Shown here in pieces: positions 4,887 to 46,248 of a stretch of 48,136 bases of DNA. A program made the position numbers and the translations under genes. The notes under the pieces were generated by a model. It had not been told where the DNA came from, did no database searches, and worked only from the letters and a program-made list of their open reading frames with translations. Numbering within the stretch: the stretch's first letter is position 1; each line of letters begins with the position of its first letter. This stretch comes from Gemmatimonadales bacterium (GTDB lineage Bacteria > Gemmatimonadota > Gemmatimonadetes > Gemmatimonadales > JACORV01), in NCBI GenBank assembly GCA_030697825.1, contig JAUYOW010000010.1, positions 1-48,136 on the forward strand, written 5' to 3'.

Positions 4887-5618
4887 ATGGACCGTCCGCC
4901 TTCAACCGTGTCGTGGAAGCGGTTGCTTTCCAAGTTGTGGTGGAAACACAACTGGAAGTGGGCCGTTCCGGTCGCCGGCCTGGCCCTCCTTCTCTTCGGT
5001 CCGGTGTTGCTCGTGGTCATCCCCCTCGTCTACCTCGGCGTACGCCAGAGCAGGAAACACACAGCTAAGCTGCGGCACGTCTGTGAAGTCCTCGGATTCG
5101 CCTTCGAGGACACTGAGGTCCGGGAACTCGGCGCCCGGTTCGGCGATTTCCCCCACTTCGCGCTGTCCGGCGGCACGGGTCGGGGCCTGATGACGGGGTC
5201 GCTGGCCGAGCACCCAGTCACGGTGATGGAACACTTCTACGGCATCCGCTCGAAGTACAGCGAGACGCTGGCCGTATTCCCGGACGGCGCGAAAGGGCTG
5301 CCGGACTTCGAGCTGGCCCCGGGCTTGGGGGCTTTGGGTGAGAAGATCCAAGCGGTGTTCGGCTACCAGGACATCAACTTCTCGGAGAACGAGGAGTTCT
5401 CGAAGCACTACGAGCTGCGAGGCACGAATGAGGCGGGGATCCGGCGTACGTTCGACGCGACGATGCTGGCGTTCTTCGCCGCGAACCAGGGGTGGTCGGT
5501 CCAGACCCGCGGCGGGGCAGCGATGATCTTCCGCGGCCACAGGCTCTACGCGCCCGCAGAAGTGCCGGGCTTCCTCGCCGAAGCCCTCAACGTGCTCGGC
5601 GAGTTGACGCGGCGGTGA
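4887..5618 (+). CDS. membrane-anchored protein of unknown function
   Basis: A 243-residue protein from the ATG at 4887; the open frame extends 27 codons upstream but that part looks non-coding. A basic, Trp-rich N terminus precedes a hydrophobic segment at about residues 25-52. A soluble domain of about 190 residues follows, ending in NEEFSKHYELRG, FFAANQGWSVQ and a C-terminal EVPGFLAEAL. The topology resembles DUF3137-type membrane proteins, but I do not recognise a function. A truncated paralog of its C-terminal third lies at 7476-7715, so the gene was duplicated locally. Confidence 0.75.
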   Translation: MDRPPSTVSWKRLLSKLWWKHNWKWAVPVAGLALLLFGPVLLVVIPLVYLGVRQSRKHTAKLRHVCEVLGFAFEDTEVRELGARFGDFPHFALSGGTGRGLMTGSLAEHPVTVMEHFYGIRSKYSETLAVFPDGAKGLPDFELAPGLGALGEKIQAVFGYQDINFSENEEFSKHYELRGTNEAGIRRTFDATMLAFFAANQGWSVQTRGGAAMIFRGHRLYAPAEVPGFLAEALNVLGELTRR

Positions 5619-7428: not shown

Positions 7429-7475
7429 TGGTTTATCGTGAGTAGACGAGGACTCCACGGCTCCTCGCCGCGTAG

Positions 7476-7715
7476 CAGTACATCGCCTTCTCGGACAACG
7501 AAGAGTTCTCGAATCACTACCTGCTGCGAGGCACGGACGAGGCGGCGGTCCGGCGTGTGTTCGACCCGACGATGCTGGCGTTCTTCGCCGCGAACCAGGG
7601 TTGGTCGGTGCAGGCCCATCGCGGCGGGGTGACGATCTGCCGCGGCTGGAAGCTCTCCGCGCCCGCCCAAGTGCCGGGCTTCCTAGCCGAGGCGCTGACA
7701 GTGTTCGGGGCGTTC
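7476..7715 (+). pseudogene. truncated paralog of the 4887-5618 gene (C-terminal third)
   Basis: The frame starting at 7476 reads NEEFSNHYLLRGTDEA, then MLAFFAANQGWSVQ, then VPGFLAEAL, nearly matching the C-terminal third of the 4887-5618 product. The match begins just after an in-frame TAG at 7473 and ends where the parent protein ends. There is no start codon, signal or membrane segment. An IS481 remnant and a hairpin lie directly upstream, consistent with duplication followed by truncation. Confidence 0.8.
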
Positions 7716-19414: not shown

Positions 19415-19835
19415 CACGCCCCAGAACTCCGCGCATCAGGATGAGCAGGTCGTCGGGGAGCCGCGTCGGACGGCCGGTCGGACCGATGGAAACGAGCGCC
19501 GTCATCGCGGTAGCGAGCAGCGCGCCGTCGTCGGCGCGCTCCATACGATACTCGAAGTTGACGCGGCGGGAACCGACATCGGTGACCCAGCTCGTGACTC
19601 GCACCAGGTCGTCGTACCTGGCCGGCTTGAGGAAGCGGAGGCTCACTTCGGCCACCGCCAGAAGGAAGCCTCGGTCCTCGAGATCCCGATACCTGACCCC
19701 GTGACGACGCAGATGTTCCGTACGGCCGATGTCGCACCAGTCGAGGTAGTGCGCGTGGTAGGCGAAGCCCATCCGGTCGGCTTCGCCGTAGCGCACCCGA
19801 ACTTCGACCGACGTGGAGAGGGCTGGTCCCGTCAC
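19407..19835 (-). CDS. YbgC/FadM-type hotdog acyl-CoA thioesterase
   Basis: A 142-residue single hotdog domain. Family signature: VRVRYGEADRMGFAYHAHYLDWCDIGRTE near residues 9-37, including the Asp/His region of the active site, then LRRHGVRYRDLEDRGF and RFLKPARYDDLVRV. It hydrolyses an acyl-CoA to acid plus CoA; chain specificity is unreadable. It starts with GTG overlapping the pduL stop (GTGA), so it is coupled to the BMC enzymes. It may act on the same acyl-CoA that PduL uses, or simply be the first gene of the downstream envelope set. Confidence 0.85.
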   Translation of the reverse strand: MTGPALSTSVEVRVRYGEADRMGFAYHAHYLDWCDIGRTEHLRRHGVRYRDLEDRGFLLAVAEVSLRFLKPARYDDLVRVTSWVTDVGSRRVNFEYRMERADDGALLATAMTALVSIGPTGRPTRLPDDLLILMRGVLGRDA

Positions 19836-20896
19836 CTCTCGTCGCGCCAGATGCCGAGGGCCTTGGCGCGGTCGCGGGCCGCGGGCGTGACGAGATAGGG
19901 CCCGCCCGCCGACAGCGTGTCGCCGCGCGCCGAGATCCGCGCGACGTCGCGCTCGGTGAGGAGCGGCCGCTTCCTTCCGGCCGGCGCGCCGCGCGAGGTG
20001 GCCACGATCACCGCCGAGTCCCCCGTCTGCACCTGTGCCGCGTTGGCCTCGTCCAGGTCCAGGTGCAGCTCCGTGGCGTGGTCGGGACCCATGCGCACCA
20101 GGACGTCGTGCAGCGTGACGCGCCGGCCCGCAGGCCCACATTCCATGGCGACCCGGTCGCCGTCGGCCACTCCCAGAGTCTTGGCGTCGGCCGGCGCGGC
20201 GTGCAGATGCCGCTGCGCGACGATCACGCCGCTCGCCAGCATCACCTTGCCCGCCGGCCCCTCGAGCGTGACGCCGCCGCCCGAGTTCTCGAGCTTGCCG
20301 CTCTGCCGGACCGGCGCGGTGACACCGAGGACGTGCCCGTCCGCGGTGGAGATCTCCAGCTGCGTGGCGCCGCGCGCCGGCCCCACGATGCGCACACCCT
20401 CGATCTTCCCTTTCGGGCCCACCACGGCGACGACTTCGGCCGCGGCGTACTGCCCCGGCTGCGAGATGGGCCGCTGGACCATGGGCGCCCTGCCCTTGCC
20501 GAACAGCGCCTCGAAATCGCGGGGCGAGACGTGGAGGTGGCGGTTCGACACGCCGATCTTCACCTCGCGGCGGGTGCGCTGCGTGGAGGCGCGGTCTGCG
20601 CCGGCCTCCGAGCCAGAGGGCAGCGGTGAAGGACCGCGCGCGGCCGCCGCCTGACGGGCCGCCGTCACCATCGCGGGGTACTCGGGCCGGTGACGCGAGG
20701 TCCCCGCGGGCCGGCGCACCGGCGCCACGTCGGGCAGCGTCTGCGCCGCGCCCGACCAGGCGGGCAACATCCCGGGGGTGGGGTCGCCCGGCGGCTCGGG
20801 ACGGGTCGGCGTCGGCAGCCACGTGCCGCCCGCGCCCTTCTCGGCGAGCCTCGTCGCTACCAACTCGACCAGTTTGGCGACTTCGTCTTTCGTCAT
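19832..20896 (-). CDS. pduL: phosphate propanoyl/acyltransferase PduL with long N-terminal encapsulation extension
   Basis: A 354-residue protein, about 140 longer than a typical PduL. Residues 1-20 ([20 protein letters not shown]) form an amphipathic helix of the encapsulation-peptide type. A Pro/Ala-rich linker runs to about 110. The PduL domain follows with both metal-binding HLH motifs (NRHLHVSPRD at 119-127 and QRHLHAAPADA at 229-239). It converts acyl-CoA plus phosphate to acyl-phosphate plus CoA, recycling CoA inside the microcompartment. Start ATG 20896 overlaps the aldehyde dehydrogenase stop by 4 nt (ATGA). Confidence 0.92.
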   Translation of the reverse strand: MTKDEVAKLVELVATRLAEKGAGGTWLPTPTRPEPPGDPTPGMLPAWSGAAQTLPDVAPVRRPAGTSRHRPEYPAMVTAARQAAAARGPSPLPSGSEAGADRASTQRTRREVKIGVSNRHLHVSPRDFEALFGKGRAPMVQRPISQPGQYAAAEVVAVVGPKGKIEGVRIVGPARGATQLEISTADGHVLGVTAPVRQSGKLENSGGGVTLEGPAGKVMLASGVIVAQRHLHAAPADAKTLGVADGDRVAMECGPAGRRVTLHDVLVRMGPDHATELHLDLDEANAAQVQTGDSAVIVATSRGAPAGRKRPLLTERDVARISARGDTLSAGGPYLVTPAARDRAKALGIWRDER

Positions 20897-22419
20897 CCTC
20901 GACCTCTCGATGCGCGATGCTTGGCGAGGAAATCGTCCACCATGACATGGACCTCGGCCGGCGTAAAGGAAGAGGGAGCGGGGAGCGGGGAGCGGTTCCT
21001 TTCGGGCGCACCGACGTCTTGAATCACACCAACGGTACCGCTCCCCGCTCCCCACTCCCCCGGCGCCTTGTACTCCCGAATCTCATACGCCAACCGCTTG
21101 ATGTTGATCAGATGCAGCGGCCCGATGTTGTCCGAAGTGCTGCTGCCCGCCCACGTGCCGGGGCCCAGCGTCATCGCCGGGACGAGGCCGGTCGTGTAAC
21201 CCACTGCGCCCATCGCCGCCATCGTGTTCACCAGGATGCGGAACGCCGGCTTCTCCTCGAAGAACCGCTGGATCACCGGCTCGTCGCGCGAGTGGATGGC
21301 GAGCGAATGGCCGAGCCCGCCGAACTCGAGCAGCTGGATGCTGCGCTCGCAGCAGCGCTCCCAGCCGTCCTCGACGTAGTACCCCAACACCGGCGACAGC
21401 TTCTCGCGCGAGAAGAACTCCTTCGGCCCGACCTCCGTGCACTCGACCACGAGCACCCGCGTATCCGCCGGGACCGTGATGCCCGCCCGCCCCGCGATCA
21501 CCGTCGCTGCCAGCCCGACGATCTCGGCGCTCACGCCACCGGTGCGCGAGTCCTGCATGGCGCGCTGGAGCCTGGCGCGGTCGTCGCCGGTCACGAACAC
21601 GGCGCCGTTCTTCGGCAGCTCGGCCCGCACCTCTGCGTCCACCGGCGCGTCACACACGATGGAGTTCTCGGCCGAGCAGAGGAGGCCGTGGTCGAAGCAC
21701 TTGCCGTTGACGATGTCGCGCACCGCCTTCGGCACGTCGGCGGTGCGCTCGATGATCGCGGGCACGTTCCCGGGACCCACGCCATAGGCCGGCTTGCCCG
21801 AGCTGTAGGCCGCCCGCACCATCGGGTACCCACCGGTCGCGAGGATCATCGCGGTGCGCTTCTGGCGCATCAGCTCCTGCGTCCCCTCGAGCGTCGGGAT
21901 CGTCATCGAGAGGACGAGGTCTTTCGGGGCCCCCGCTCCCACCGCGGCGTCGTGCATGATGCGTGCCGCCTCGTTGATGCACTTCACCGCCCTCGGGTGC
22001 GGCGACATCACGATGGCGTTGCGGCCCTTCACGCTGATCAGCGCCTTGTAGATGGCGGTGGAGGTCGGGTTGGTGGTGGGGATGAGCGCCGCGACGACGC
22101 CCATCGGTACGGCCATCTCCTTCACCTTGAGCTCGGGGATCTCGCGGATCACGCCTACCGTCTTGAGCGGCCGGATGTACTTGAGGACGTCATCGGCGCC
22201 GAACTTGTTCTTGAGGACCTTGTCCTCGTAGCGCCCCATGCCCGTCTCGTCCACGGCCAGGCGCGCCAGCGGCTCGGCGGAGGCGGAGGCCGCGCGGGCC
22301 ATCGCTTCTACGACGCGGTCGGTCTCTTCCTGGGTGGCGTGCGCGAAGGCCTGCTGCGCGGCGTGGGCCCGCTCCACCAGGTCCCGGGCTTCCTGGACCG
22401 ACGCGAGGTCCTTGTCCAC
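20893..22419 (-). CDS. CoA-acylating aldehyde dehydrogenase of a bacterial microcompartment
   Basis: A 508-residue protein of the AdhE/EutE/PduP-type acylating branch: [36 protein letters not shown], and catalytic Cys248 in [11 protein letters not shown]. It oxidises an aldehyde to acyl-CoA with NAD and CoA. Residues 483-508 ([20 protein letters not shown]) form a C-terminal encapsulation peptide. Residues about 454-482, the linker before it, are encoded by a palindromic dispersed repeat (20974-21061). Start is GTG 22419, 19 nt after the preceding shell gene. The substrate aldehyde is not indicated, as no signature enzyme is present. Confidence 0.92.
20974..21061. repeat. palindromic dispersed repeat, copy 1 (inside the aldehyde dehydrogenase gene)
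   Basis: The left arm GGGAGCGGGGAGCGGG... (20974-20999) and an inverted right arm (21034-21061) flank a loop containing GCGCACCGACG. A related copy lies at 45425-45492 with the same arm unit GGGAGC and a loop containing GCGCACCG. Here it keeps the reading frame and adds about 29 residues to the enzyme. Confidence 0.85.
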
Positions 22420-22437
22420 GGTACCGGGCCGCGCTCG

Positions 22438-22899
22438 CTAGGTGGAGTGGCCGAGGGCGCGGAAGTGCGCGAGCAGCTCTTCGCGGTTGGCGATGGAGAG
22501 CTCGCGCCCCTTGAGCGGGAAGTCGGGCATCTGGCGGGCGCGATGGCGGAGATCCACGACCTTCATCTCAGCGAGCGGGACATCGCCTCTCGCGGGATTG
22601 CCGGCGCTGCCCTCCTCGGCGGCGTCGGACATGAGCTCGAGGCCCGGATACGGACGCGGGATGACGTGCACGGACACCAACTGGCCCACCTTGCTGGCAG
22701 CGGCCGCGCCGGCGTCCACCGCCGCTTTCACGGAGGCGACGTCGCCGGAGAAAAGGACGGTGATAAGGGCGGGATCGGTCCTCTCGGTACCCAGCAGCTT
22801 GACCGGCGCCGCCTTCACGCCCGCGTCAGCCGCTTCGATCGCCCCCACCAGCCCCCTGGTCTCGATCAGGCCGAGGGCCTGTTCGGTCCAGGACGACAT
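22438..22899 (-). CDS. BMC-H shell protein with C-terminal extension and unusual pore loop
   Basis: A 153-residue protein. The BMC domain (Pfam BMC, residues about 5-90) starts [24 protein letters not shown] and includes the [14 protein letters not shown] edge strand. The pore-loop position reads TERTDPALITV rather than the usual KxGSGxVTV, so the central pore should differ. A 60-residue extension follows, ending MPDFPLKGRELSIANREELLAHFRAL, a helical motif seen on some shell proteins. It lies 10 nt downstream of the first shell gene. Forms hexamers in the shell facet. Confidence 0.9.
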   Translation of the reverse strand: MSSWTEQALGLIETRGLVGAIEAADAGVKAAPVKLLGTERTDPALITVLFSGDVASVKAAVDAGAAAASKVGQLVSVHVIPRPYPGLELMSDAAEEGSAGNPARGDVPLAEMKVVDLRHRARQMPDFPLKGRELSIANREELLAHFRALGHST

Positions 22900-22909
22900 G
22901 CCCGGGCTC

Positions 22910-23188
22910 CTACACGCCCTTCGGGAGGATGAGCTCGATGTCCGCGTGAGGCCGCGGGATGACGTGGACCGACACCAGCTCGCCGACGCGCTCGGCGGCC
23001 GCGGCACCGGCGTCCGTGGCGGCCTTCACCGCGCCCACGTCGCCGCGCACCATGACGGTGACGTAACCGCCGCCCACCTTCTCCTTGCCGACGAGCTTCA
23101 CGTTCGCGGCCTTGACCATGGCGTCCGCGGCCTCGATCGCGCCGACGAGGCCCTTGGTTTCGATCATGCCGAGCGCTTCAAGTGGCAT
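22910..23188 (-). CDS. BMC-H hexameric shell protein (PduA/EutM/CcmK type)
   Basis: A 92-residue single BMC domain: [31 protein letters not shown], pore loop [29 protein letters not shown] and [14 protein letters not shown]. This is the canonical major shell hexamer. Start ATG 23188 has GGAGGA 4 nt upstream, the strongest ribosome site of the operon, matching a high-copy shell component. First gene of the operon, behind the promoter at 23229-23257. Confidence 0.97.
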
Positions 23189-23200
23189 GGCTCCTCCGAA

Positions 23201-23231
23201 TGTGGCACGCTGGGAAAAACTCCGTGCCACA
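23201..23231. promoter_or_regulatory. inverted repeat, candidate operator of the BMC operon
   Basis: TGTGGCACG (23201-23209) and CGTGCCACA (23223-23231) are perfect 9-bp arms with a 13-nt centre. The right arm overlaps the predicted -10 box and the repeat covers the transcription start. It could be a repressor operator or a 5'-UTR hairpin. No regulator gene is adjacent. Confidence 0.5.
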
Positions 23232-23257
23232 GTACGTGCTCCCGCCTCAAAAGTCAA
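23229..23257 (-). promoter_or_regulatory. predicted promoter of the BMC operon
   Basis: Minus-strand -35 TTGACT (23257 to 23252), a 17-nt spacer and -10 TACTGT (23234 to 23229), about 41 nt upstream of the first shell gene start. The spacing is ideal, while the -10 keeps the T, A and final T positions. The region is shared with the divergent hydrolase gene at 23307. Confidence 0.55.
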
Positions 23258-23306: not shown

Positions 23307-24047
23307 GTGAGCGGCGAACGCGTGGTTGTGGTGGGCGATGCGCACCTGGGGTCGGCCAACATCCGGGACGAGGAAGCGTTCCACGAGCTCCTCGACGCCG
23401 TGCCCTCGCTCGGCGACCGGCTGCTCGTCATGGGAGACCTCTTCGACTTCTGGTTCGAGTACCGGGCCGTTATCCCCCGCCGTCCCTTCAAGACCCTCAC
23501 CAAGCTGGCCGTCCTGGCCGAGAAGGGGGTGCGGGTGGAGATGTTCGGGGGGAACCATGACCGCTGGGGAGGGACGTTTTGGGGGGAGGACCTCAAGATC
23601 CCGTTCCACGCCGAAGGCACGGACCTGGTGATCGCCGGCCGGACGGCCCACGTGGCCCACGGCGACGGGCTGGCCGAGCAGACTCTGGGGGGGAAGCTGC
23701 TCCACTGGATCACCCGGAGCCGGTTCACGATCGGCGCCTTCAAAGCGCTGCACCCCGACTTCGGCTTCAAGCTCGCCGACCGGCTCTCCGGCGGCCTGGC
23801 GGAGGGCAACAAGTCGCCCGAGGCGATTGACGCGGCGGCGGCAGCTCAGGAGACCTGGGCCCGCGCGCTGATGGACAGCCGCCCCGACCTGGGATTGGTC
23901 GTTCTCGCCCACACGCACCGGCAGCGGCTGCTGGAGGTGGCGCCGGGTAGGTTCTATCTCAACGCCGGCCAGTGGATGGTGGATCGCGCGTACGCCGTGG
24001 TCGGGCCGGAGACCATTACCCCGCTGCGCTGGCCCGCGCGCCCGTAG
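23307..24047 (+). CDS. LpxH-like UDP-2,3-diacylglucosamine hydrolase / metallophosphoesterase
   Basis: A 246-residue calcineurin-type phosphoesterase with the full metal set: VGDAHLGSANI (D/H), GDLFDFWFEYRAV, GGNHDRWGG (GNHD), HGDGLAEQ and AHTHRQRL (GHxH). The DFWFEY segment is typical of LpxH and relatives, which remove UMP from UDP-diacylglucosamine in lipid A synthesis. Start GTG 23307; an ATG 8 nt earlier is out of frame. A 48-bp piece of this gene (23810-23857) is repeated at 28027-28074. Confidence 0.82.
   Translation: MSGERVVVVGDAHLGSANIRDEEAFHELLDAVPSLGDRLLVMGDLFDFWFEYRAVIPRRPFKTLTKLAVLAEKGVRVEMFGGNHDRWGGTFWGEDLKIPFHAEGTDLVIAGRTAHVAHGDGLAEQTLGGKLLHWITRSRFTIGAFKALHPDFGFKLADRLSGGLAEGNKSPEAIDAAAAAQETWARALMDSRPDLGLVVLAHTHRQRLLEVAPGRFYLNAGQWMVDRAYAVVGPETITPLRWPARP
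23810..23857 (+). repeat. 48-bp direct repeat, left copy (within the LpxH-like gene)
   Basis: It matches 28027-28074 with 2 mismatches in 48 positions. Here it encodes KSPEAIDAAAAAQET in frame, so this copy is the original. Together the copies bracket the TRAP transporter operon. Confidence 0.9.
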
Positions 24048-27974: not shown

Positions 27975-28026
27975 GAGAGGCGGAACGGCACGATCGAGCC
28001 GCTGCTGCTGGCGCTTCGGTGCACCA

Positions 28027-28074
28027 CAAGTCGCCCGAGGCGATGGACGCGGCGGCGGCGGCTCAGGAGACCTG
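28027..28074 (+). repeat. 48-bp direct repeat, right copy (intergenic, after the TRAP operon)
   Basis: The near-identical partner of 23810-23857, lying between the TRAP permease stop (27974) and the murI stop (28080). It is not part of a gene here. Only this piece of the hydrolase gene is present. Confidence 0.9.
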
Positions 28075-45420: not shown

Positions 45421-46248
45421 TTAAGGGAGCGGGGAGCGGGGAGCGGTACCATCCGTGCGCACCGCAGGTACGGCTCCCGGCTCCCGGCTCGGCAATTTGA
45501 ACAACCTTCTCGCGTTCTCACCCGTCAGCTCGGCGATCCGCTCCGGAGTCGTGCCGCGGATCTCGGCCAACCGCTTCGCCGTGGCCGGCAGGAACCCCGG
45601 CTCGTTGCGCTTCCCGCGGTACGGCACGGGCGCGAGATAGGGCGCGTCGGTCTCGATGAGCAGCCGGTCGTCCGGCACCCGCTCGACCGCCCACGCCGCG
45701 TCCCACTTCCGGAAGGTGATCATGCCGCTCCAGGACACCAACAGGCCGCGCGCGAGCGCCGCGTCCAGAACGGCCGGGCCGGAGCTGAAGCAGTGCAGCA
45801 CGCCGGTCAGGCCGGCCGGCGCTTCGGAGAGGAGGCGCGCCGTGTCCTCGTCCGCCTCGCGCGAATGGATGATCGCCGGCTTCCCGCGCTCGGCCGCCTG
45901 CCCGAGGTGCCACGCGAACGCCTCACGTTGCCGATCCCGCGGTGAGTGGTCGTAATGGTAGTCCAGCCCCGTCTCACCTACGGCGACCACTGCCGGATCG
46001 CTGAACAACCGTTCCAGCTCGAGCGCTGACGCGGGCTCGAATTCCGAGGCTTGGTGAGGGTGAATGCCCGCCGTCGCGGCGAGCCCTTCCCCGCTCCGGC
46101 TGATCGCGACGGCCGCATCCGAAGCTGCGACGGTATCCGCCACCACGATGATGACGCCCACACCCGCCGCCCGCGCCCGCTCCACCACCTCCACGCGATC
46201 CGCGTCGAATGCGGCGTCGCCGAGGTGGCAGTGCGAGTCGACGAGCAA
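45421..46248 (-). CDS. tatD: TatD-family metal-dependent DNase, tail encoded by a repeat
   Basis: A 275-residue amidohydrolase-fold nuclease: LVDSHCHLGDAAF, ETGLDYHYDHSPRDRQREAF, IIHSREADEDTARLL, GVLHCFSSG, IETDAPYLAPVPYRGKRNEP. Starts with TTG 46248, the only good in-frame codon before VDSHCHL. A normal TatD would end near NARRLFKLP; here about 22 extra residues come from the palindromic repeat at 45425-45492. The stop lies just beyond the repeat. Confidence 0.9.
   Translation of the reverse strand: MLVDSHCHLGDAAFDADRVEVVERARAAGVGVIIVVADTVAASDAAVAISRSGEGLAATAGIHPHQASEFEPASALELERLFSDPAVVAVGETGLDYHYDHSPRDRQREAFAWHLGQAAERGKPAIIHSREADEDTARLLSEAPAGLTGVLHCFSSGPAVLDAALARGLLVSWSGMITFRKWDAAWAVERVPDDRLLIETDAPYLAPVPYRGKRNEPGFLPATAKRLAEIRGTTPERIAELTGENARRLFKLPSREPGAVPAVRTDGTAPRSPLP
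45425..45492. repeat. palindromic dispersed repeat, copy 2 (3' end of tatD)
   Basis: Left arm GGGAGCGGGGAGCGGG... (45425-45450) and a right arm with GGTACGGCTCCCGGCTCCCGG (45467-45492) that is its imperfect inverse. Loop contains GCGCACCGC. Same family as 20974-21061. Confidence 0.85.

Follow-up and report, generated by a model that had tools for sequence, protein, structure and literature searches.

A G-rich heptad palindrome of a dispersed family in the linker of a BMC aldehyde dehydrogenase gene from a Gemmatimonadales bacterium

Results

The element and its host gene

The linker ahead of the C-terminal segment of an aldehyde dehydrogenase in a Gemmatimonadales genome is encoded by a palindromic element, and in the account that we consider rather likely this element belongs to a genome-wide G-rich heptad family that persists in tolerant loops and whose arms are rewritten over time by template switching. 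The window, that is the whole stretch of DNA that was analysed (48,136 nucleotides), contains at positions 20974–21061 a near-perfect inverted repeat with arms of the (GGGAGCG)3-GGT(A/T)CC type and a loop of 34 nt between them. Its RNA fold reaches −72 kcal/mol (z −8.8), which was matched by 0 of 200 shuffles, and its DNA fold −32.7 (z −5.9); the sequence and both folds compared with shuffles thus confirm the inverted repeat that the original prediction had placed here. The host protein comprises 508 residues and finds its best NCBIfam match in TIGR02518. The features concerned are the following:

20893–22419, minus strand: acylating aldehyde dehydrogenase gene hosting the element (TIGR02518, 577.9 bits, slightly below the cut-off of 620.1; PF00171)
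20896–20967, minus strand: C-terminal segment (24 aa), putative encapsulation helix (VDDFL-type segment conserved behind a variable linker, 12 orthologs)
20974–21061, no strand assigned: two-arm heptad palindrome (sequence, fold z −8.8 as RNA, dispersed family)
20974–20999, plus strand: left arm GGGAGCGGGGAGCGGGGAGCGGTTCC, i.e. (GGGAGCG)3 followed by GTTCC (sequence)
21034–21059, minus strand: right arm, mirror image, reading GGTACCGCTCCCCGCTCCCCACTCCC on the plus strand (sequence)

Solved homologues of the enzyme cover it up to residue ~450, and the element encodes residues ~454–482, beyond that part and ahead of the conserved C-terminal segment. Coding position and conserved segment bear out the proposal that the repeat supplies in-frame linker codons before a putative encapsulation peptide. 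The accompanying statement that the unit keeps the frame is wrong: its length of 88 bp is not divisible by three, so that the unit itself is not frame-keeping. The gene adjoins those of a PduL-type phosphotransacylase and two BMC shell proteins, which together form a small BMC locus (window positions 19832–23257); the neighbouring genes that were inspected included no recognisable signature enzyme.

The linker before the encapsulation segment

Orthologs of the aldehyde dehydrogenase are present in 12 of the 151 genomes of the order, the studied genome (G000) included, and in all 12 a variable linker joins the core to the conserved C-terminal segment. In published descriptions, encapsulation peptides are short helices attached to disordered, poorly conserved linkers (PMC12339742). 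With the element, the tail after the core measures 59 aa in G000 and 62 aa in G387, a species of the same genus; without it, 62 aa in G305, 55 in G015 and 53 in G238. Since every ortholog has a linker and repeat-free tails are similar in length, the element lies in an ancestral linker, and the change in spacing between core and targeting peptide that had been predicted is not seen in the ortholog alignment (53–62 aa in repeat-free near relatives vs. 59 aa); altered spacing was rejected as an explanation, and a role of the repeat as maker of a new linker is unsupported for the same reason. On the aligned sequences, the linker preceding the putative encapsulation helix is ancestral and the element sits in one that was apparently already flexible. 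Compared with codon shuffles, the structure of the linker is clear only in G000 (z −6.0), the values for G387 and for one long repeat-free linker being −2.3 and −2.2, respectively. We infer that the repeat is a neutral linker in the aldehyde dehydrogenase and not a new spacing device. For the BMC enzyme this suggests that the cargo linker readily accommodates repeat DNA, rather than that targeting was re-engineered.

A dispersed family of heptad palindromes

A BLAST search of the element against its own genome returned 106 matches, and the 15-mer GGGAGCGGGGAGCGG, with one mismatch allowed, matched 149 times compared with 3 for the reversed control. The loci that were read hold at least 57 separate places, 34 with two arms and 23 with a single arm, and copies lie between as well as inside genes; the dispersal claimed for the repeat is therefore confirmed. 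In most full copies, GGGAGCG units are followed by GGTACC, then by a centre that varies, and finally by the same parts in mirror image; 28–72 nt, often palindromic-looking in themselves, separate the outer heptads. The arms, as read from the sequences rather than formally counted, usually contain three units and in some cases two or four. Elements of mixed units exist within one genome, and the second copy in the window is a hybrid:

45425–45492, no strand assigned: arms of different unit, GGGAGCG in one and GGGAGCC in the other (located at the C-terminal end of a TatD-family gene)

The window also contains two pairs of direct repeats unrelated to the heptads, at 5364–5605 and 7473–7714 (242 nt, 82% identity) and at 23800–23857 and 28017–28074 (58 nt, 90% identity).

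Copies inside genes

In-frame copies inside coding sequence make up 15 of the 57 places read (~26%); 13 were established by the flank test, and the aldehyde dehydrogenase and queA, where one flank is short in each, by hand. Hosts supported by Pfam include tgt, ligD, alaS, bipA/typA, aroC and queA, as well as genes for a ribonucleotide reductase, a molybdopterin oxidoreductase, an ABC ATPase, a CoxM-like flavoprotein, a DUF72 protein and an MFS transporter. Single arms predominate among the intragenic copies: 11 of the 23 single-arm places but 4 of the 34 two-arm places lie inside genes (Fisher p 0.005). The 7-nt period yields an identical heptapeptide in all three frames, and none of the six frames of GGGAGCG contains a stop (GSGERGA / RSPLPAP); such a stop-free heptad should be unusually harmless in coding DNA.

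Orthologs of the host genes were found with the joined protein flanks as query and then aligned. The product of tgt carries ~38 additional residues in G000 and G387, which none of six sequences from five further genomes of the family possesses, and that of queA is ~12 residues longer in G000 than in three relatives. The arm in aroC coincides with a stretch that already encodes PLPxPL in all relatives, and the length is essentially unchanged. No target-site duplication was recognised by eye in the tgt, queA and aroC alignments, where native bases appear to have been replaced. The aligned sites, including that of the molybdopterin enzyme, indicate that tolerant loops take up arms, which in some cases replace the sequence there.

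At the loop of the molybdopterin oxidoreductase that bears a heptad arm in G000, G387 has an 8-nt tandem repeat, (ACGGGCGT)4 (locus L059, around position 1710). Inspection by eye also points to alaS as an apparently recurrent host of heptad arms across families (L037, L156, L161), in the loop after SEIYVDL, and places an arm at the PLPAPSVDTG loop of alaS in G146.

Heptad units in a sister species and in other genomes

Of 395 Gemmatimonadota genomes surveyed specifically for GGGAGCG, 39 contain arrays, patchily distributed. The same-genus G387 scored 0 in this survey yet contains 47 matches of GGGAGCC type; absence of the repeat from G387 was accordingly rejected, and a survey by exact unit undercounts the family. 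Fifteen G387 elements were examined, and for eight of them the surrounding stretch aligns to an element locus of G000, in most cases with arms in base-for-base alignment; at L111/L034 the aligned stretch showed no corresponding element, and L115/L032 has GGGAGCC in both genomes. In six arms from five sites, the seventh bases of the units differ between G387 and G000 at 15 of 17 positions and the other bases at 8 of 136, a contrast whose significance is overstated because these arms were picked as in-register alignments with differing units; the in-register pattern is still plain. The loops at orthologous sites rank 10, 13, 1 and 6 among 22 in similarity and are not consistently closer to each other than random loops; with only one of four ranking first, inheritance via loop homology is unproven. 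The number of copies differs greatly among near relatives. Two readings fit: inherited sites with concerted rewriting of the unit, or repeated insertion at hotspots by each genome's own variant.

A search for GGGGNNA revealed further, genome-specific units elsewhere in the order, GGGGAGA in G225, GGGGGAA in G146 and GGGGYTA in G345, each in many places (loci L196–L204). The GGGGYTA heptads of G345 show the inverted-pair layout, and in G146 a GGGGGAA array lies within a long coding frame.

Discussion

Origin and persistence of the repeats

According to the account that we favour, the site in the aldehyde dehydrogenase would have been occupied before the studied species and G387 separated, or reached separately in each. 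The element would have persisted because the linker was already variable and because the stop-free unit of 7 nt gives the same hydrophilic peptide whatever the frame. Arms would presumably be of low fitness cost wherever a loop tolerates change, the loop position itself being seen for several genes. They may be added, replaced and homogenised, so that orthologous sites would retain an element with a differing unit; the difference itself, GGGAGCC vs. GGGAGCG, is observed. As the likely cause we infer template switching, linked to repair or replication, from one dispersed copy to another where G-rich DNA is structured, by elimination of RAYT, reverse transcriptase and phage as detailed below; slippage inside the arms would accompany it. 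Against this account, the orthologous loops are not clearly alike, which allows independent insertion at shared hotspots, and the strong differences in copy number among near relatives also suit transposition.

The element could instead be a non-autonomous transposable palindrome of the MITE, REPIN or RPE kind, moved in trans and inserted recurrently at tolerant sites by each species' own variant. Terminal inverted repeats, dispersion, the patchy occurrence among related genomes, the clean net gain in tgt and the loops without clear orthology all agree with such a movement, which we regard as possible but less probable. A RAYT/Y1 transposase (PF01797, the one family covered by the transposase profile search) was not detected in the studied genome, reported to be 98% complete in 333 contigs, nor in six other genomes of its family; no target-site duplication was recognised by eye in the aligned sites, and many copies have a single arm. 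In the family designated f2, several genomes do contain PF01797, and a heptad array is situated no more than ~1.5 kb from each of five RAYT genes; two of these arrays apparently lie, as judged by eye, in a neighbouring alaS gene. The RAYT genes read in these genomes are edged by different palindromes, and an origin of the heptads as RAYT/REPIN elements was rejected on both counts. The RAYT-type genes at L153 and L156 are bordered by GC-rich palindromes of their own, e.g. CCCCGGGGCACGGCCCCGGGG, which are unlike the heptad family. Writing by a retron- or DGR-type reverse transcriptase was likewise rejected, PF00078 being missing from 11 of the 12 genomes tested, the studied genome among the 11, and so was carriage by phage, the 26-mer having 0 matches in viral contigs. 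The term mobile, which the original prediction applied to the repeat, stands in part: it is plausible for the family, whereas no mobilising enzyme was detected in the genome and the sister species G387 has an element at the same site.

A bolder proposal, which we put forward tentatively and hold to be doubtful, is that in Gemmatimonadales an active, genome-specific process writes heptads rich in G, many of them in inverted pairs, into conserved chromosomal sites, codons of essential genes among them, and rewrites existing sites when the heptad of the genome changes, so that entire genomes would switch 'dialect' in concert, without a known transposase or reverse transcriptase.

The tandem structure of the heptads might also have arisen by purely local growth, through slippage and quasipalindrome template switching in place and without movement between sites. 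Other short repeats do occur at the loops of relatives, namely the 8-nt repeat in the G387 molybdopterin enzyme and heptads of GGGGTCA type in the ligD linker of G038. Dozens of sites, however, share the unit and the GGTACC inner end, and many have related centres, which unrelated sequence would not yield, so that we consider this origin improbable. Even less credit is due to a selected function, in which an mRNA hairpin or quadruplex, placed after the core of the aldehyde dehydrogenase and before pduL downstream, would regulate translation or mRNA stability: the RNA hairpin is very stable and stands within an apparent operon, but orthologs in similar loci have no repeat, and family members lie in unrelated genes with no common role. 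An artefact of metagenome assembly, to which the 333 contigs and the location of at least two copies (L048, L044) at a contig end or close to one might point, is very improbable and largely refuted by repeats on a single contig of 5.5 Mb (G198), elsewhere in the order and in records of several Gemmatimonadetes isolates, and by flanks that align through to orthologs.

Comparison with known repeats

G-rich heptads were known before from Xanthomonas and cyanobacteria; in the literature searched, mostly outside subscription journals, no report of heptad repeats in Gemmatimonadota was found. The heptads of Xanthomonas and Nostoc, GGGAATC and GGGGA(C/T)T (the GGGNATC kind), form quadruplexes (Rehm et al. 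2015, PMC4692102). Their arrays comprise 2 to 26 units with a preference for four, two inverted arrays are common (70–75 cases per Xanthomonas), and sites are often common to species with varying sequence and length (PMC4692102). By our analysis the GGGAGCG family appears closest to these heptads and would represent the same kind of repeat: both have a 7-nt unit starting with GGG, arranged in tandem and dispersed over the genome, with inverted pairing and sharing of sites with variation. The family described here differs in the sequence of the unit, in an arm of typically three units followed by GGTACC with no preference for four (a tendency and not a strict criterion), and in a unit that changes from genome to genome within the order. 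The share in coding frame also differs, ~26% of the places read in the studied genome compared with 7–11% in Xanthomonas. Two species of one genus that share sites, including sites in core genes, with one base swapped in nearly every unit offer a natural experiment on the copying and homogenisation of repeats.

The short dispersed palindromes, frequently in inverted pairs, also resemble REP/REPIN sequences, from which they are set apart by the lack of a detected RAYT in the genome and six others of its family, by arms that are heptad arrays and by their frequent position inside genes. REP palindromes bear a GTAG or CGTC tag at one end (PMC3733652); on reading of its sequence, the element has no GTAG, and CGTC occurs only within the loop.

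The palindromic elements of Rickettsia and Wolbachia (RPE, WPE) occupy tolerant places of conserved protein genes, where they are read in frame (PMC2229807, PMC3767692), and in-frame copies in conserved genes are likewise seen in the studied genome. Compared by description and not by sequence alignment, RPE measure 105–150 bp, have terminal repeats of 12 bp and belong to Rickettsiales, whereas the present element measures 88 bp, has heptad arrays as arms, is accompanied by many single arms and belongs to Gemmatimonadales. The range of tolerated protein-coding palindromes is thereby extended beyond Rickettsiales to another phylum, in a soil lineage.
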